From positions 1 to 5,985 of the forward strand of contig JALWSI010000124.1 in the NCBI GenBank assembly GCA_027080315.1: a stretch of 5,985 nucleotides of DNA, given 5' to 3'. Below the pieces are notes generated by a model. It had not been told where the DNA came from. It saw only the letters and a program-made list of their open reading frames with translations, and made no database searches. The position numbers were made by a program, and so were the translations under genes. The first letter of the stretch is position 1. Every line of letters starts with the position of its first letter. The stretch comes from a bacterium. Lineage in GTDB: Bacteria; Thermosulfidibacterota; Thermosulfidibacteria; Thermosulfidibacterales; JALWSI01. Positions 1 to 5,937 of the stretch are shown piece after piece.

Positions 1-687
1 AGAGAAGCCCTTGAGGCCTATCATAACCCCTGTGTCAAAAGAGACGGTGGTTATGGGGGTGATGAGCACTCCTCCCACAGCCCCAAGAGCCCCGCTCAAG
101 AAGAAGGCCAGCAGCCTGATCCTCTCCACAGGTATCCCCATGAGCATAGCCGCCCGGGGATTACACGCAACGGCCCTCATGGCCTTGCCATAGCGGGTTG
201 ACCTGAAGAACCAGAAAAGAACCAGCACAACCACTAAGGTGACACCAAAGATCCACAGGCTCTGGGGCATGAGGTAGGCACCGAGTATCCTTATCGGGGT
301 GTCGCCTGAAAAAGGCGGGAGGGAGAGGGGGCGTTTCCCCCAAACCAGCTTTATCACTCCCCTTATGAAGATGGAGGCTCCGATGGTGATGAAGATGAGA
401 ATGAGCACATCCTTGGAGACCGCGGGCTGTATGAGGCACCTATCCATAACCACACCCACCAAGGCCACAAGGAGAACCGCAAGGAGAAAGGCCACAGGAA
501 GGGGCAGGTGAAGCCCCACAAATAGGGTGACCATGAGCATTCCCCCCAAGGTGAGAAAGTCGCCCTGGGCGAAGTTCACTATGCCTGTGGCGTTGTGAAT
601 CAGGCAGAAACCCAGGGCTATCAAGGCGTAGATGCTTCCTGTGGCAAGACCAGAGAAGAGGAACTGGGCAAAGAGGTGGCCCTCCAT
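1..687 (-). CDS. livH: LIV-family ABC transporter permease, LivH type (5' 229 codons; C-terminus outside window)
   Basis: This is an inner-membrane permease subunit of a hydrophobic amino acid (HAAT/LIV) ABC importer. LivH pairs with a LivM-type permease, LivG/LivF ATPases and a periplasmic binding protein, none of which is inside the window. Reading back from an ATG at 687-685, the frame is open for 229 codons to the window edge; full LivH proteins are about 290-300 residues. Visible family features are the N-terminal hydrophobic segment with GLATGSIYALIALGF (13-27), the LivH hallmark GIVNFAQGDF (35-44), further hydrophobic segments at about 45-80, 94-112 and 144-161, and the cytoplasmic EAA-like ATPase-contact loop GKAMRAVACNPRAAMLMGIP (167-186). 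The start is fixed by AGGAGG 7 nt upstream (700-695). Just before that lies an intrinsic terminator and a Trp-codon leader peptide, so expression is probably controlled by tryptophan attenuation. The family default is branched-chain amino acids; the leader argues for Trp or aromatic uptake. Family assignment is firm, substrate is inferred. Confidence 0.95.
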   Translation of the reverse strand, partial: MEGHLFAQFLFSGLATGSIYALIALGFCLIHNATGIVNFAQGDFLTLGGMLMVTLFVGLHLPLPVAFLLAVLLVALVGVVMDRCLIQPAVSKDVLILIFITIGASIFIRGVIKLVWGKRPLSLPPFSGDTPIRILGAYLMPQSLWIFGVTLVVVLVLFWFFRSTRYGKAMRAVACNPRAAMLMGIPVERIRLLAFFLSGALGAVGGVLITPITTVSFDTGVMIGLKGFS

Positions 688-694
688 CTCAGCC

Positions 695-700
695 CCTCCT
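695..700 (-). promoter_or_regulatory. livH Shine-Dalgarno abutting the terminator U-tract
   Basis: The minus strand reads AGGAGG, 7 nt before the livH ATG. It begins at the base immediately after the TTTTT of the upstream terminator (705-701). A transcript ended at the terminator would therefore lack the ribosome binding site completely, while any read-through transcript carries it outside all the helices described here. Control should therefore be at transcription rather than through occlusion of the binding site. Confidence 0.9.
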
Positions 701-737
701 AAAAACGAAGGGCTGTGAACCGAAGCCCACAGCCCTT
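701..737 (-). terminator. Intrinsic terminator with UUCG tetraloop in the livH leader
   Basis: On the minus strand AAGGGCTGTG (737-728) pairs perfectly with CACAGCCCTT (717-708). The stem continues through two G.U pairs (727/718 and 726/719) and a C-G pair (725/720) that closes a UUCG loop (724-721), an exceptionally stable tetraloop type. After the stem comes CG and then TTTTT (705-701). It is segments 5:6 of the attenuator described here. The 5' arm can instead pair with 764-752, which would abolish the terminator. The plus strand also has TTTTTT (740-745) after the inverted repeat, so the hairpin could work in both directions, but no plus-strand gene leads into it. Confidence 0.9.
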
Positions 738-764
738 GATTTTTTAAGAATGGCCGTGGGCTTC
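722..764 (-). promoter_or_regulatory. Antiterminator helix S4:S5
   Basis: Bases 764-752 pair with 734-722 over 13 bp with a single G.U (755/731), leaving a 17-nt A/T-rich loop (751-735). Wobble-containing pairs could extend the base of the stem to 768/718. It uses the 3' arm of the 751-780 hairpin and the 5' arm of the terminator, so it excludes both. Segment S4 begins exactly where helix S2:S3 ends (765), so the two read-through helices lie end to end and could stack coaxially. Confidence 0.8.
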
Positions 765-780
765 AGCCTGCCCACGGCCA
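751..780 (-). promoter_or_regulatory. Protector hairpin S3:S4 (anti-antiterminator)
   Basis: This is a perfect 11-bp GC-rich inverted repeat (780-770 with 761-751) with an 8-nt loop. It starts 11 nt after the leader stop codon, just beyond where a terminating ribosome would end. When formed it locks S4 away from the terminator arm. It is followed by ATTCTTAAAAAA in the transcript rather than a U-run, so it is unlikely to be a terminator itself. Confidence 0.82.
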
Positions 781-791
781 ACGGTATCATC

Positions 792-866
792 TCACGCGGC
801 TCCTGGGCAGACTTCGCCCCTGCACCACCACCAGAAGCCGTTGCTATGTGCCATTTGAACCATCAT
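792..866 (-). CDS. Tryptophan leader peptide, 24 residues with three consecutive Trp
   Basis: This small open frame starts at ATG 866-864, with a second ATG directly after it, and ends at TGA 794-792. The peptide begins MMVQMAHSNG, continues FWWWCRGEVC and ends PGAA. The three TGG codons lie at 833-825, residues 12-14. Tandem codons for the regulating amino acid, a short peptide, a stop codon just before a set of competing hairpins and a terminator ahead of the structural gene are the defining marks of a ribosome-mediated attenuator; the E. coli trp leader has two Trp codons in 14 residues. The ribosome binding site is only GA-rich (GAAGAGAGAG ending at 868), not a strong AGGAGG. Starts at the second ATG (863) or at residue 5 (854) are possible and do not affect the Trp codons. 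The peptide itself probably has no other role. Confidence 0.9.
   Translation of the reverse strand: MMVQMAHSNGFWWWCRGEVCPGAA
797..840 (-). promoter_or_regulatory. First leader hairpin S1:S2 overlapping the Trp codons
   Basis: CGGCTTCTGG (840-831) pairs with CCAGGAGCCG (806-797), 10 bp with one U.G pair (835/802). The 5' arm contains the first Trp codon of the leader peptide, and the 24-nt loop holds the other two. It competes with S2:S3 by sharing 806-804 and by enclosing 813-807 in its loop. A small alternative stem, GGGC (819-816) with GCCC (808-805), also exists in this region. Confidence 0.7.
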
Positions 867-908: not shown

Positions 909-2984
909 CTACTTTGGAAGAACAACCTTTGAGAGGTCTGCTATCCCTTTGAAGAGACCGGCTATGCGATTGAGGAGAGATAGGCGGTTCTTCTTAACCC
1001 TCTCGTCCTTGTCCATCACCAGCACATTATCAAAGAAGCTGTCAACCTTGGACTTAAGGGCAACGATCTTGGCCAAAGCACCAGAGTAGTCCTCATTGGC
1101 TTTGGCCTCCTCCACTTCCGGAGCTATTCTCTCAACCTCTTCAAAGAGGGCCTTCTCTGCATCCTCTTTCAGCAAGGCGGGATCAATCCCACTCTCCTCA
1201 AACCCCTCAGGGATGATGTTCATCACCCTCTTGAAGGTGGTCATCAACTCTTCAAACTGGGGATCTTTGCTCACCTCAACAAGGGCGTCAACCCGTTTAA
1301 GGGTCTCTACCACATCGTCAAAGGCCTCAGAAAGCACGGCATCCACCAGATCTTGCCTGTAGCCCTGGGAGACCAGCTGATGGTAGAGCCTCTGTCTAAT
1401 AAAGGAGATAACATCGTTCTTAACCTCCTCTGCCGGTCTCTCCATCTTATCCTTCAAGAGCCTTGAAGACTCCTCAATCAGCTCAACCAACGAGAGCCTG
1501 TAGCCCTTCTCAGAGATGGTGCGCAGCATGCCCAGAACATCCCTACGAATGCCGTAGGGATCCTCGGATCCTGTGGGGATCAACCCGATTCCAAAACAGC
1601 CCACAATGGTGTCAAGCCTATCGGCTATCCCCACTATGGCCCCTGTCACCGTGCTGGGGATATCGTCCCCTGCAAATCGGGGCAGGTAGTGCTCAAAGAT
1701 CCCATCTGCCACCAGGGGATCCTCTCCCTGGATCCTGGCATACTCCCGCCCCATAACCCCCTGAAGCTCGGGAAACTCGTACACCATCTGGCTCTCAAGG
1801 TCGGCCTTTGCAAGAAGAGCGGTGCGATCAACAAGATCGCTCTTGTCAGGGGCCACATTCTGGGCAATCTTCTTGGCAAGCTCCCTGAAACGCATCACCT
1901 TCTCGTACGATGTGCCCAGTTTCTCCTGGAACACAACATCTTTCAGTTTCTCAAAGTACTTTTCAAGGGGAACCTTCTTGTCCTCTTCAAAGAAGAACTT
2001 GGCGTCGGCAAGCCGTGCCCTTAGAACCCTCTCGTTACCCTCAACGATGAGATCCATGTCATCGGTCACCATGTTGCTCACCACCACAAAGTGAGGAAGA
2101 AGCTCTCCCTTCTCGTTGAAGATGGGAAAGTAACGCTGGTGCTCCTTCATGGGGGTTATCAGCACCTCTTTGGGCAGAGAAAGGTACTCCTCCTCAAAAG
2201 AGCCGCGTAGGGGCACGGGATACTCTACCAGAAAGTTGATCTCGTCCAATAGGTCCTCGTCCTCCATGGCCACCCCTCCCACCTCTTGGGCCTTCTGGGA
2301 GACTCCCTTCCAGATGGTCTCCTTTCGCTCGTCGTGGTCAACCACCACATAGGCCTCTCTAAGCCTCTCCTGATAGCCCTCTGGAGACTCAAGGGTTATT
2401 GGTTGGGGGGCCAGGAATCGGTGCCCATAGGTCACCCTGCCGCTGCTAATATCCTCTATTGAGAACTCCACCACCTCCTCGCCAAAGAGGGCAAGGATCC
2501 AGTGTATGGGCCTTGCAAACCTGAAGTTGTAATCTGCCCAACGCATAGACTTTTTGAAGGGAATCTTGGCCATAAGATTGGGGAGAAACTCTCTAAGTAT
2601 CTCAAGGGTCCCTTTGCCAGCCTCCCTCTTAACCACAGAGAGATACTCGCCTTTTGGGGTGGTGACCCGCTCTATCTCATCAAGGCTCACCCCTTGGGAT
2701 TTACAGAAGCCCTCTGCCGCCTTGGTAGGATTGCCATCTGCATCAAAGGCCACCGAAACCGGGGGACCCATCACCCTCTCCTCTTTGTCCCTCTGGCTCT
2801 CTGCCATATCAAGCACCCTAAGCACCAGCCTTCTGGGGGTTCCCCAGGTGATGATCTCGCCATGGTCTATTCTCTGGTTCTCCAGCTCCCTCTTAACCAT
2901 CTTCCCCATGGCATCCAAGGCCGGCAGCATGAAGCTGGCAGGAATCTCCTCTACGCCTATCTCAAACAGCAGCTCTCTCCCCAT
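909..2984 (-). CDS. glyS: Glycyl-tRNA synthetase beta subunit
   Basis: This is the cytoplasmic beta subunit of the bacterial alpha2beta2 glycyl-tRNA synthetase. With the alpha subunit (GlyQ, which carries the aminoacylation core) it charges tRNA-Gly; the beta subunit mainly binds tRNA. At 691 residues it matches the usual length of about 690 and appears intact. Recognisable stretches are the N-terminal LLFEIGVEEIPASF (5-18), RRLVLRV (51-57), MRWADYNFRFARPIHWILAL (147-166), KEHQRYFP (280-287), NERVLRARLADAKFFFEED (317-335), the HD-like middle region YEFPELQGVMGREYA (402-416) and GSEDPYGIRRDVLGMLR (472-488), and the C-terminal anticodon-binding DALR-type end with ERVKKNRLSLLNRIAGLF (661-678). 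The ATG start has AGGAGGG (3002-2996) about 11 nt upstream, a slightly long spacing, with AAAGG directly next to the ATG. The gene follows vorB by 67 nt. The usual partner glyQ is not adjacent. The leader peptide of livH begins 42 nt after its stop. Confidence 0.98.
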   Translation of the reverse strand: MGRELLFEIGVEEIPASFMLPALDAMGKMVKRELENQRIDHGEIITWGTPRRLVLRVLDMAESQRDKEERVMGPPVSVAFDADGNPTKAAEGFCKSQGVSLDEIERVTTPKGEYLSVVKREAGKGTLEILREFLPNLMAKIPFKKSMRWADYNFRFARPIHWILALFGEEVVEFSIEDISSGRVTYGHRFLAPQPITLESPEGYQERLREAYVVVDHDERKETIWKGVSQKAQEVGGVAMEDEDLLDEINFLVEYPVPLRGSFEEEYLSLPKEVLITPMKEHQRYFPIFNEKGELLPHFVVVSNMVTDDMDLIVEGNERVLRARLADAKFFFEEDKKVPLEKYFEKLKDVVFQEKLGTSYEKVMRFRELAKKIAQNVAPDKSDLVDRTALLAKADLESQMVYEFPELQGVMGREYARIQGEDPLVADGIFEHYLPRFAGDDIPSTVTGAIVGIADRLDTIVGCFGIGLIPTGSEDPYGIRRDVLGMLRTISEKGYRLSLVELIEESSRLLKDKMERPAEEVKNDVISFIRQRLYHQLVSQGYRQDLVDAVLSEAFDDVVETLKRVDALVEVSKDPQFEELMTTFKRVMNIIPEGFEESGIDPALLKEDAEKALFEEVERIAPEVEEAKANEDYSGALAKIVALKSKVDSFFDNVLVMDKDERVKKNRLSLLNRIAGLFKGIADLSKVVLPK

Positions 2985-3051: not shown

Positions 3052-4113
3052 CTACGCCTCTCTTTTTACAAGGGCTTCTATTCCTTCAAGTATCTCCTCG
3101 GGGGTGAAGTACCAAGCCGGCTTGGTGAGAGACTCCACACCCGAAGCCTTAACATAGGCCCTCACATCCTCCACCATCTGACCGGTGTTCATCTCAACCA
3201 CTAAGAAGGTTCGCCCCTCTTTATCCAGATTAGCCAAAGCCTTCTTTGGGAAGGGAAATAGCGTTTGAGGCCTGAGCATTCCCACAGGGATACCCTTCTC
3301 TTTGGCCCATCTTATGGCGGTTTTGGCTATTCGGGCCACTGTCCCGTAAGCAACAACCACAAACTGGGGATCATCCTCTAAGAGAAACTCCTCGTATCTC
3401 GTCTCTTCCTCTTCAATGCGACGGTACTTCTCTGCCAGCTTCCGATTATGCTCGGTGAGCTCTCCCATTCCCAGAAAGAGGGACTTGGCCAGTTTTGGGC
3501 TTCTGCCCCTGCAACCCCTCAAAGCCCACGGCTTCTCGCTTGCAAAGGGATCAATCCACTCCTCGGGCATGTCCACTGCCTCCATGATCTGGGAAAGCAG
3601 GGCATCTCCCAAGATCAAGGCGGGGTTCCTGTACTTTTGGGAGAGGTCAAAGGCCATAAAGACCATGTCAACCGCCTCTTGCACATTGGAAGGGGCAAGC
3701 ACTATGGTGCGGTAGTCTCCATGGCCTCCGCCCTTAACGGACTGAAAGTAGTCTCCCTGCGAGGGCTGAATGCCCCCAAGACCGGGGCCTCCCCTGTTCA
3801 TGTTCACCACAACCGCGGGAAGCTCGGCTCCCCCTAAGTAAGAGAGCCCCTCTTGCATAAGGCTTATGCCCGGACTTGAAGAGGAGGTCATGGCCCTTAT
3901 GCCCGAAACCGCCGCTCCCAAGAGCATGTTTATTGAGGCCACCTCGCTCTCTGCCTGAATAAAGACCCCTCCCACCTCGGGAAGTCTCCACGAGAGATAC
4001 TCGGGAATCTGGCTTTGCGGGGTGATCGGATATCCCGCATAGAAACGGCAGCCTGCCCTAACGGCGGCCTCTGCTATGGCCTCACAGCATTTCCACAGTC
4101 TTGACTGGCTCAT
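3052..4113 (-). CDS. vorB: 2-oxoacid:ferredoxin oxidoreductase alpha subunit, VorB-like (2-ketoisovalerate type)
   Basis: This is a 353-residue alpha subunit of a ferredoxin-dependent 2-oxoacid oxidoreductase, an oxygen-sensitive enzyme that converts a 2-oxoacid plus CoA to acyl-CoA, CO2 and reduced ferredoxin. It contains the pyrimidine-binding (PYR) domain: FYAGYPITPQSQI (24-36), QAESE (53-57) with the Glu region that contacts thiamine diphosphate, SSSSPGISL (77-85), and RGGPGLGGIQPSQGDY (107-122) leading to VKGGGHGDYR. A C-terminal domain follows with GMLRPQTLFPFP (278-289) and VVEMNTGQM (305-313). Overall it most resembles VorB, but KorA/PorA-type substrates cannot be excluded. The start chosen is ATG 4113-4111, which overlaps the ferredoxin stop as ATGA; the frame is open 20 codons further upstream, but that extension lies inside the ferredoxin gene and looks unlike the family. 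Oddly, the beta (thiamine-binding) and gamma subunits that normally follow are absent; glyS comes next. Confidence 0.92.
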   Translation of the reverse strand: MSQSRLWKCCEAIAEAAVRAGCRFYAGYPITPQSQIPEYLSWRLPEVGGVFIQAESEVASINMLLGAAVSGIRAMTSSSSPGISLMQEGLSYLGGAELPAVVVNMNRGGPGLGGIQPSQGDYFQSVKGGGHGDYRTIVLAPSNVQEAVDMVFMAFDLSQKYRNPALILGDALLSQIMEAVDMPEEWIDPFASEKPWALRGCRGRSPKLAKSLFLGMGELTEHNRKLAEKYRRIEEEETRYEEFLLEDDPQFVVVAYGTVARIAKTAIRWAKEKGIPVGMLRPQTLFPFPKKALANLDKEGRTFLVVEMNTGQMVEDVRAYVKASGVESLTKPAWYFTPEEILEGIEALVKREA

Positions 4114-4310
4114 TTGTACACCTCTATCACCACATCCGGACACACCTCTGCGCAGAGGGCACAGGAGATACACTCTTCTTGAGAGATTATCTCTACCGGA
4201 TGAAAACCGCCTTTGTTTCTCTTGGTCTCGTTCAACCTGAGGATCTTTTTGGGACAGGCATCAACACACAGGGCACATCCCTTACAGAGCTCTTCGTTAA
4301 TCACTATCAT
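4110..4310 (-). CDS. 2x[4Fe-4S] ferredoxin-type subunit of the 2-oxoacid oxidoreductase (delta/VorD-like)
   Basis: This 66-residue protein has two classical cluster motifs: C9-x2-C12-x2-C15-x3-C19-P and C47-x2-C50-x2-C53-x3-C57-P. It would hold two [4Fe-4S] clusters that pass electrons from the thiamine-diphosphate site to soluble ferredoxin. The size and the ATGA overlap with the downstream alpha subunit point to the delta subunit of the same complex rather than a free ferredoxin. The ATG at 4310-4308 has GGGGAGAG just upstream, and this site lies inside the end of recN, whose stop (4299-4297) falls 14 nt into this gene. Translation is therefore probably coupled to recN termination. Confidence 0.9.
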   Translation of the reverse strand: MIVINEELCKGCALCVDACPKKILRLNETKRNKGGFHPVEIISQEECISCALCAEVCPDVVIEVYK

Positions 4311-5937
4311 CTCTCTCCCCCAACCACGGGATCTTCTCTCCTCCCATCATTCGTTTCAACTCCTCTTTCATCTCACCTTCAGTCAACCTGTCTATTGTGG
4401 TTACGGTTCTATCCTTCTCAACCCTTTTAGCAACCCTGAGGTGGTGATCTCCAAAGGCCGCTATCTGAGGAAGATGGGTTATGCACACAATCTGTCTCTC
4501 TTTTGCTATCTCTTTCAACAGCCTACCCACCTCAACGGCGGTCTCTCCTCCTATCCCCGTATCAACCTCGTCAAGCACCCACAGATCACTCCCCCCTCTA
4601 TGGGATAAAAGGCTGTATATTGCAAGGGTTATTCTTGAAAGCTCACCACCAGAAGCCACCTTCCATAGGGGTCTTTTTCCCTCCCCAGGGTTGGGCTCAA
4701 TGAGAAACTCCACCTTGCTAAGGCCCCAGGGCCCTGGCTCTCCCTCTGAGAACTGAAGGCTAAGCCTTGCCTGCTCAAGCCTTAACTTGCTCAAAATGGC
4801 CTCAACCTCTTGGCAAAAATCCTTCTCTGCCCCTTTTCTTCTCCTGTCCAGCTCCTCCCCTGTACGCCAAAGCTCCTCTTCAACCTCAGCAAGCCTCTCC
4901 TTCAGCTCTTGGGAGCTCTCATGGCTTCTCTCAAGCTGTGAGATCTCTTCCCTCACCTCCTCAAGGTAAGAGAGCATCTCATCCACGGTTTCACCGTACT
5001 TGGGCTTGAATCTGGCAATAAGGTCCAAACGCTCCTCCACCCTCTGAAGCTCCTCTGGATCCTCGTTCATATCCTCTGCCAGAGAGATCAGCTTAAGAGA
5101 GGTCTCTTCAACAGCCACCAAGGCCTCCTCAAGAACCTCTACCGAGGCACCAATCTCTTCTTTTAATCCCCTCCACTCTTCAAGGTTGCCCAAGGCCAGA
5201 TTGATGAACTCCCGGGCAGAGGGCTCGTTCTCTGAGAGATAGCCCGCTGCCGCCATCAGCCCCTCTTTGCACCTTGCAGCCTTTGACAGAACCTCTCTCT
5301 TGCGGCGCAGATCCTCCTCTTCGCCACTTTTAAGGTCCGCCTCTTCCAGCTCTCTAAGTTGAAACCTTAAAAACTCTAAGCGTTTAATCCTTTCTGCAAC
5401 CCCCTCTTCCGCCTCTTTAAGCTCATTTCTCAGCCTCTCCCTCTGGCGATAGAGCTCCAGATACCGCCGGTGAATCCCCTCAAGCCCAGCGTATGCGTCA
5501 AGGATGGCCACGTGGCGGGAGGGATGGAGGAAGGAATGGTGATCCTTCTGACTCTGGATCTCCATGAGATGGGGAGAGAGGGCTCTCAGAGTGGAGAGGG
5601 TTGACACAGAATCGTTGATGAAGACCCGATTCCTCCCCTGTCGGCTGAGAATCCTTCGTACCACTAAGGGATTCTCAAAGGGAATGCCCACCTGCTCCAA
5701 CAGCTCGGCAACCGGGGAGGATCCATCAACCTCAAAGGTGCCTTCAACCAAGGCCTCAGAGGTACCCTCACGCACCATAGAGGAGTCGCCCTTCTTGCCG
5801 GCAAGCAGCCCCAAAGAGTTCACCAGCAAAGACTTGCCAGAGCCCGTCTCGCCGGTGATCACCGTAAGACCCTCTCCAAACTCCAAGAGGGCGTCGGTTA
5901 TCAATGCAAGGTTCTTTGTTCTAAGGGTGAGAATCAC
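4297..5937 (-). CDS. recN: DNA repair protein RecN (SMC-like ATPase)
   Basis: RecN is a cytoplasmic SMC-family ATPase that acts on double-strand breaks in recombinational repair, together with RecA. The frame encodes 546 residues, close to the usual 550-560. It has the N-terminal RecN signature NLALITDALLEFGEGLTVIT (9-28) running into Walker A GETGSGKS (29-36), and RRILSRQGRNRVFINDS (94-110). The Q-loop region EIQSQKDHHSF (126-136) is somewhat different from the more common IHGQHEHQ form. A charged, Leu-rich coiled-coil region covers about 150-385. The ABC signature ASGGELSR (428-435), Walker B WVLDEVDTGIGG (453-464) and H-loop CITHLPQIAAF (485-495) follow. The start is GTG (5937-5935), supported by AGGAGG (5951-5946) 8 nt upstream and by the standard N-terminus. 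Its 3' end overlaps the ferredoxin gene by 14 nt. No SOS box can be judged, since the promoter is outside or absent from the window. Confidence 0.97.
   Translation of the reverse strand: MILTLRTKNLALITDALLEFGEGLTVITGETGSGKSLLVNSLGLLAGKKGDSSMVREGTSEALVEGTFEVDGSSPVAELLEQVGIPFENPLVVRRILSRQGRNRVFINDSVSTLSTLRALSPHLMEIQSQKDHHSFLHPSRHVAILDAYAGLEGIHRRYLELYRQRERLRNELKEAEEGVAERIKRLEFLRFQLRELEEADLKSGEEEDLRRKREVLSKAARCKEGLMAAAGYLSENEPSAREFINLALGNLEEWRGLKEEIGASVEVLEEALVAVEETSLKLISLAEDMNEDPEELQRVEERLDLIARFKPKYGETVDEMLSYLEEVREEISQLERSHESSQELKERLAEVEEELWRTGEELDRRRKGAEKDFCQEVEAILSKLRLEQARLSLQFSEGEPGPWGLSKVEFLIEPNPGEGKRPLWKVASGGELSRITLAIYSLLSHRGGSDLWVLDEVDTGIGGETAVEVGRLLKEIAKERQIVCITHLPQIAAFGDHHLRVAKRVEKDRTVTTIDRLTEGEMKEELKRMMGGEKIPWLGERDDSD

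Follow-up and report, generated by a model that had tools for sequence, protein, structure and literature searches.

A predicted tryptophan attenuator before a HAAT-family importer operon in Thermosulfidibacterota

The window analysed here, a whole contig of 5985 bases (C124) from a draft genome (G000), very probably carries a ribosome-mediated tryptophan attenuator in front of an importer operon of the livHMGFK type. An earlier note on this DNA had proposed such control of an ABC permease operon, and the proposal is supported, at the level of sequence, by two findings: the leader peptide, its competing helices, the terminator and their spacing are all kept before the liv operon in each of the five genomes that have a livH orthologue, and the same element stands before trpE. 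We infer the sign of the switch (on at tryptophan shortage), its response to tryptophan and its exact start site; given the shared element before trpE in this phylum, the same sign is to be expected at liv, with expression on when Trp-tRNA is short.

The first gene of the operon, livH (1–687, minus strand, ATG at 687), encodes a HAAT-family permease and belongs to the BPD_transp_2 family (PF02653, E 6e-32). Because the contig ends inside livH, the gene is truncated and no more of the operon can be seen in G000: livH is the one gene of the HAAT operon on the contig, and livMGFK are presumed to lie behind it. The upstream neighbour is glyS (909–2984, minus strand; TIGR00211, 892 bits), which is outside the switch and is replaced by other genes in the relatives. 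Further along the same strand (3052–5937) are ordinary neighbours, namely a VorB-like 2-oxoacid ferredoxin oxidoreductase alpha subunit, a small ferredoxin subunit and recN.

The leader and its two predicted states

All parts of the element lie on the minus strand. A putative promoter starts 7 nt past the glyS stop codon with a −35 hexamer that is a perfect match (TTGACA, 897–902), followed by a poor −10 element (AAGAAG, 879–874), and several relatives have −10 elements better than that of the window copy. In 18 of the phylum's 20 leaders the motif TTGAC(A) is found 34–40 nt ahead of the AUG (902 to 866 in the window; also L058, L102, L108 and others), which places the start site within a few nucleotides of the AUG; this −35 position implies that the leader-peptide mRNAs would be nearly leaderless across the regulon.

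The leader frame (MMVQMAHSNGFWWWCRGEVCPGAA and a stop codon; 24 codons, 792–866) opens with two ATGs (866 and 863), ends at the stop codon 794–792, has orthologous leaders in four relatives and includes three tandem TGG codons (825–833) that would act as the sensor and are conserved in the alignment. It is followed by a first hairpin (780–751, TGGCCGTGGGC...GCCCACGGCCA) and by a terminator hairpin (737–708) with a UUCG loop, after which CGTTTTT runs to 701. The U-tract (705–701) directly adjoins the livH Shine-Dalgarno sequence AGGAGG (700–695). These are the features that the earlier note had described, a Trp-rich frame of 24 codons and inverted repeats with a terminator whose U-tract touches the livH ribosome binding site, and they are present at 866–792 and between the frame and livH. 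The folding of the whole leader region has a z-score of −4.2, with none of 200 shuffles as good. An Rfam scan of the window gave no match, and the gathering cut-offs of neither RF00513 (Trp_leader) nor RF00230 (T-box) were reached.

Five segments can be distinguished. Segment A (GUCUGCCC..., 804–812) lies within the last leader codons and is predicted to pair with B in the stalled state of each of the five liv leaders. Segment B (GGCCGUGGGCAGGC, 766–779), invariant among these, has A or C as its partner, and segment C (UGAAGCCCACGGCC, 752–765) has B as its partner in the stop state and D in the stalled state. Segment D (AAGGGCUGUGGGCUUCGG, 720–737) is the 5′ arm and loop of the terminator, and segment E with the U-tract (701–719) provides its 3′ arm (719–708); together D:E form an intrinsic terminator between leader and livH (737–701, −20.9 kcal/mol). 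In the mechanism that we propose, transcription would start just past glyS, almost at the leader AUG. When Trp-tRNA is short, a ribosome would stall at the Trp codons (833–825) and leave A exposed, so that A:B could pair, C would be released to pair with the emerging D, and C:D would block D:E, allowing livH and the downstream genes to be transcribed. When Trp-tRNA is ample, the ribosome would reach the stop codon (794–792) and cover A, B:C would pair, D would stay free to form D:E, and transcription would end near 701.

Folding in silico supports these two states; to represent the ribosome footprint, each fold started 14 nt past the A-site codon's first base. If the ribosome stands on the first of the Trp codons, A is free, and in all five liv leaders A:B and C:D form ahead of the synthesis of E; if it stands on the stop codon, it hides A, and the terminator D:E forms along with B:C. 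In 15 of the 16 tandem-hairpin leaders the stalled-state energy (A:B plus C:D) is below that of every one of 100 shuffles, and in the remaining leader it is below that of 99. The spacing is conserved as well. In most leaders A starts 16–24 nt downstream of the first sensor codon, with its end close to the stop codon, and B:C starts about 14–20 nt after the stop codon, again in most leaders. A and B still pair while their letters differ from operon to operon: GUCUGCCC/GGGCAGGC in liv, GGUGCCACC/GGUGGCACC in trpE and GCCUGCCC/GGGCAGGC in aro leaders. In an equilibrium comparison most leaders favour the finished terminator even in the stalled state, and C:D would outcompete B:C once D had emerged, so the switch must act kinetically, and the order of folding during transcription must count. 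A weak GGGC/GCCC pairing upstream of A is a candidate that could cause termination when the leader is untranslated.

Conservation with livH and a wider aromatic regulon

The phylum sample consisted of nine genomes, all of one order. When livH was searched as a protein, blind to any leader, orthologues with 60–65% identity were found in four of the other eight genomes, and each of the four has a leader peptide with WWW or WWWW just upstream (MKGFNINQAWWWWQGLVCPLRA, MRIDSINQAWWWRGEVCPLRA, MEGCFIWQAWWWRRVVCPPQA and MERRTHIQAWWWRGVICLSQA), giving five of five with the window. The operon order livH-livM-livG-livF-livK was seen in four relatives, the binding protein of G005 being recovered separately. 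It had been suggested that the regions upstream of livH be aligned for conserved tandem TGG codons and covarying helices: the codons are indeed kept in all four relatives, but covariation within the liv set is weak, there being five liv leaders with B nearly invariant. Relatives with the same livH and no leader or terminator, which would have spoken against the proposal, were sought among the four orthologues and none was seen. Among the significant matches of a covariance model (see below) there were no paralogous livH or other LIV-type genes of the phylum. More distant livH relatives, in metagenome-assembled genomes (MAGs) of Deltaproteobacteria (57–64%), have no leader directly before livH and mostly sit in clusters with genes for indolepyruvate ferredoxin oxidoreductase (IOR) and for phenylacetate-CoA ligase (paaK).

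As the element lies directly behind glyS and in the same direction, the hairpins might be thought a mere glyS terminator and the Trp-rich frame an accident. When the 223-nt region was shuffled 20,000 times with dinucleotides preserved, 14 shuffles gave a small ORF with at least WWW (about 7e-4 per region), and yet such an ORF recurs in five genomes; moreover, the hairpins align in the liv leaders of the relatives while the upstream genes differ, the leader and hairpins staying with livH. We regard an accident of this kind as scarcely credible.

The attenuator at liv appears to be one member of a set. When the nine genomes were searched for the hairpin core GCCGTGGG-N3-22-CCCACGGC, G000 gave two copies (none for a reversed-pattern control), one in the liv leader and one in a probable trpE leader on contig C169, which holds the start of trpE only. 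Elsewhere it was found before trpE, aroA′-aroB′, trpB2 with a PF13557 outer-membrane protein gene, liv and paaK, and its sole occurrence outside aromatic leaders in the nine genomes is one match inside a coding gene. The idea that it is a generic terminator of these genomes was rejected on account of this restriction. The leader codons fit the pathway downstream, being WWW or WWWW at trpE and at the outer-membrane protein-trpB2 unit, mixed Phe/Tyr/Trp at aroA′-aroB′ and Phe at paaK. Since trpE has a leader of its own, the liv switch does not replace control of tryptophan biosynthesis. TrpR was absent from all nine genomes in a search that used E. coli as its control.

Because the window and its relatives served to train the covariance model (R1), its scores on those sequences are not independent. 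Across 386 genomes spread through the domain the model matched only this phylum and two tryptophan biosynthetic leaders, of trpE and trpD, in two unrelated genomes; a search of three genomes in the phylum of G031 found no match. One trpE leader outside the phylum (L122, about 961–1093, minus strand, G088:C134) has the peptide MTDLSIIRHSLTNWWWWIAVP and two tandem hairpins, and the tandem arrangement is therefore not confined to this phylum.

Several members of the set were observed individually. Leaders before aroA′-aroB′ (ADH synthase, TIGR01949, and 3-dehydroquinate synthase II) comprise L110 (G000:C43, about 3086–3250, minus strand), L108, L109, L111, L112, L114, L099 and L120, whose peptides have runs of all three aromatic residues, such as SFSFYWWYYF, SWFWFYYWW and FFYFWWYYF; in most cases the same tandem hairpins come next. 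Such a switch would sense Phe, Tyr and Trp jointly. A WWW leader precedes the PF13557 outer-membrane protein gene and trpB2 (TIGR01415) at L057, L058 and L052 (G003:C67, G005:C188, G008:C238), a unit that probably serves indole salvage; in G000, trpB2 is on C146 behind a similar gene, and the start of the contig removes any leader. Phe-rich leaders before paaK were seen in four relatives (L140, 2473–2535; L141, 2367–2420; L142, 8633–8713, minus strand; L143, 9240–9314, minus strand), with the peptides GGGFFFFGRLGP, WFSFF, GGFFFINLGP and GGFFFGFRGAGP, a hairpin and U-tract, and an IOR alpha gene nearby. This points to a role of PaaK and IOR in making Phe from phenylacetate.

The nascent leader peptide could, in the manner of TnaC, sense free tryptophan and turn on a catabolic importer when tryptophan is high; IOR and PaaK are often catabolic, and a Pro precedes the stop codon in several leaders (SM23_61 ior, some trpE and some paaK). 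This was rejected because the element is shared with trpE, where induction by tryptophan makes no sense. In addition, the liv leaders lack a terminal Pro, the peptides share little besides WWW and those codons that segment A dictates, and the terminator here is intrinsic, whereas tna uses Rho. A TnaC-like device is accordingly judged very improbable, and the preferred reading is still an attenuator that responds to a shortage of charged tRNA.

The cargo of the importer

The earlier note had spoken of a LIV-type amino acid transporter, and of this description the HAAT permease stands, with livHMGFK in the relatives, but an amino-acid cargo is doubtful because residues of LivJ are missing from the relatives' binding proteins. 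Ser79, Thr102, Tyr202 and Glu226, which we take to be the LivJ contacts for the alpha-amino acid ligand, are replaced by T, G, I and H, respectively, in the binding proteins of four relatives, the comparison being a low-identity alignment of proteins from relatives, as the window's own binding protein is off the contig. The nearest solved structures are 7ylt, 3sg0, 3uk0, 4dqd and 3ukj; the last four have QTHG where the query has QCHG, with a His at the Glu226 position common to both. Structures of this kind (3sg0 and kin) are presumably aromatic-acid binders, and a search of the open literature found no ligand paper for 3sg0 and its relatives. The loss of the LivJ residues together with this likeness means that the cargo may be an aromatic acid. 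Judged from sequence comparison, the importer probably carries an aromatic compound, either tryptophan itself or an aromatic or indolic acid, and not Leu, Ile or Val.

Two sub-cases of the attenuator reading follow, to which we give similar weight, holding each to be quite possible though somewhat short of an even chance. The first is that the importer takes up tryptophan itself, a simple starvation response. This agrees with the Trp leader and its starvation logic, and LIV transporters can carry aromatic amino acids, the one of E. coli being annotated as branched chain amino acid/phenylalanine; it sits less easily with the loss of Glu226, which binds the alpha-ammonium group, and of Tyr202 and Thr102. 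The second is that the same switch governs salvage, not tryptophan uptake: the importer would bring in an aromatic or indolic acid (e.g., indoleacetate or indolepyruvate) to be made into tryptophan by PaaK, IOR and an aminotransferase. The missing LivJ residues and the His shared with 3sg0, 3uk0, 4dqd and 3ukj point this way, although the residue argument depends on a low-identity alignment and on the LivJ contacts assumed here. Clusters in the Deltaproteobacteria MAGs join IOR, livHMGF and paaK, one of them (SM23_61) with a Trp leader in front, and in G000 genes for a hisC-like aminotransferase, paaK and iorA stand in a row, a predicted set that could convert arylacetates to aromatic amino acids; the Phe-rich paaK leaders of four relatives are in keeping with this. 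Against salvage, no Trp leader was seen at iorA inside the phylum.

Relation to known attenuators and wider meaning

The earlier note had likened the arrangement to that of the E. coli trp operon. The kinship as a Trp leader attenuator holds, with tandem Trp codons in a short leader, coupled translation and an intrinsic terminator before the first gene, as in E. coli trpL (Rfam RF00513), but the target here is an importer operon, the RF00513 gathering score is not reached, and the topology is a five-segment relay in which a stalled ribosome must expose A and a terminating ribosome must cover it. The his attenuator of E. coli and Salmonella is a relay of alternative hairpins. In passing the position of the ribosome along such a chain to the terminator, the present element (A:B/C:D versus B:C/D:E) seems nearer to E. 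coli his than to trp, although it has Trp and not His codons and one segment fewer, unless the weak GGGC/GCCC pairing is counted. Firmicutes T-box leaders of amino acid transporters likewise let starvation for one amino acid open a transporter operon at a leader terminator, but they bind uncharged tRNA directly, and none was found in the window with Rfam.

A Deltaproteobacteria MAG, SM23_61, has a WWWW leader (L032, 1491–1590; peptide MGGQLLNIWWWWCKEKGGVCP) before iorA-iorB-livHMGF-paaK. It has the same letters in A (GUCUGCCC) and in B:C (GCCGUGGGCAG...GCCCACGGC), but comprises only three segments, with B:C itself the terminator, and would control ior and paaK along with liv. In Sinorhizobium meliloti, trpL-trpE(G) is controlled by attenuation without transcriptional repression, from a leaderless trpL whose RNA begins at the AUG (PMC7298713). 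The putative start at or near the AUG, deduced here from the promoter position only, would make the present leader similar, but the target in S. meliloti is trpE(G).

Attenuators mostly target biosynthetic enzymes in the genomes covered by one survey (PMC3766115). A search of the open-access literature found no report of a Trp attenuator before a transporter or on a HAAT importer. The mechanism is a known one, of ribosome-mediated attenuators and hairpin relays, and the importer as target is apparently new.

That a HAAT importer has a conserved Trp leader is a sequence clue to the role of a transporter that would otherwise be called 'branched-chain'. One element appears with varied codons, for Trp at trpE, trpB2 and liv, for Phe, Tyr and Trp at aroA′B′ and for Phe at paaK, and leader codons therefore offer a direct, testable label of pathway direction. 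It may be, and we put this forward as a tentative and rather doubtful proposal, that tryptophan starvation switches on uptake of an indolic or aryl acid for its reductive conversion to tryptophan by PaaK, IOR and an aminotransferase, in which case the leader codons would mark IOR, PaaK and HAAT importers as an assimilatory salvage network for aromatic amino acids. More generally, the codons bear on the direction, catabolic or biosynthetic, in which uncultured anaerobes use IOR and PaaK.
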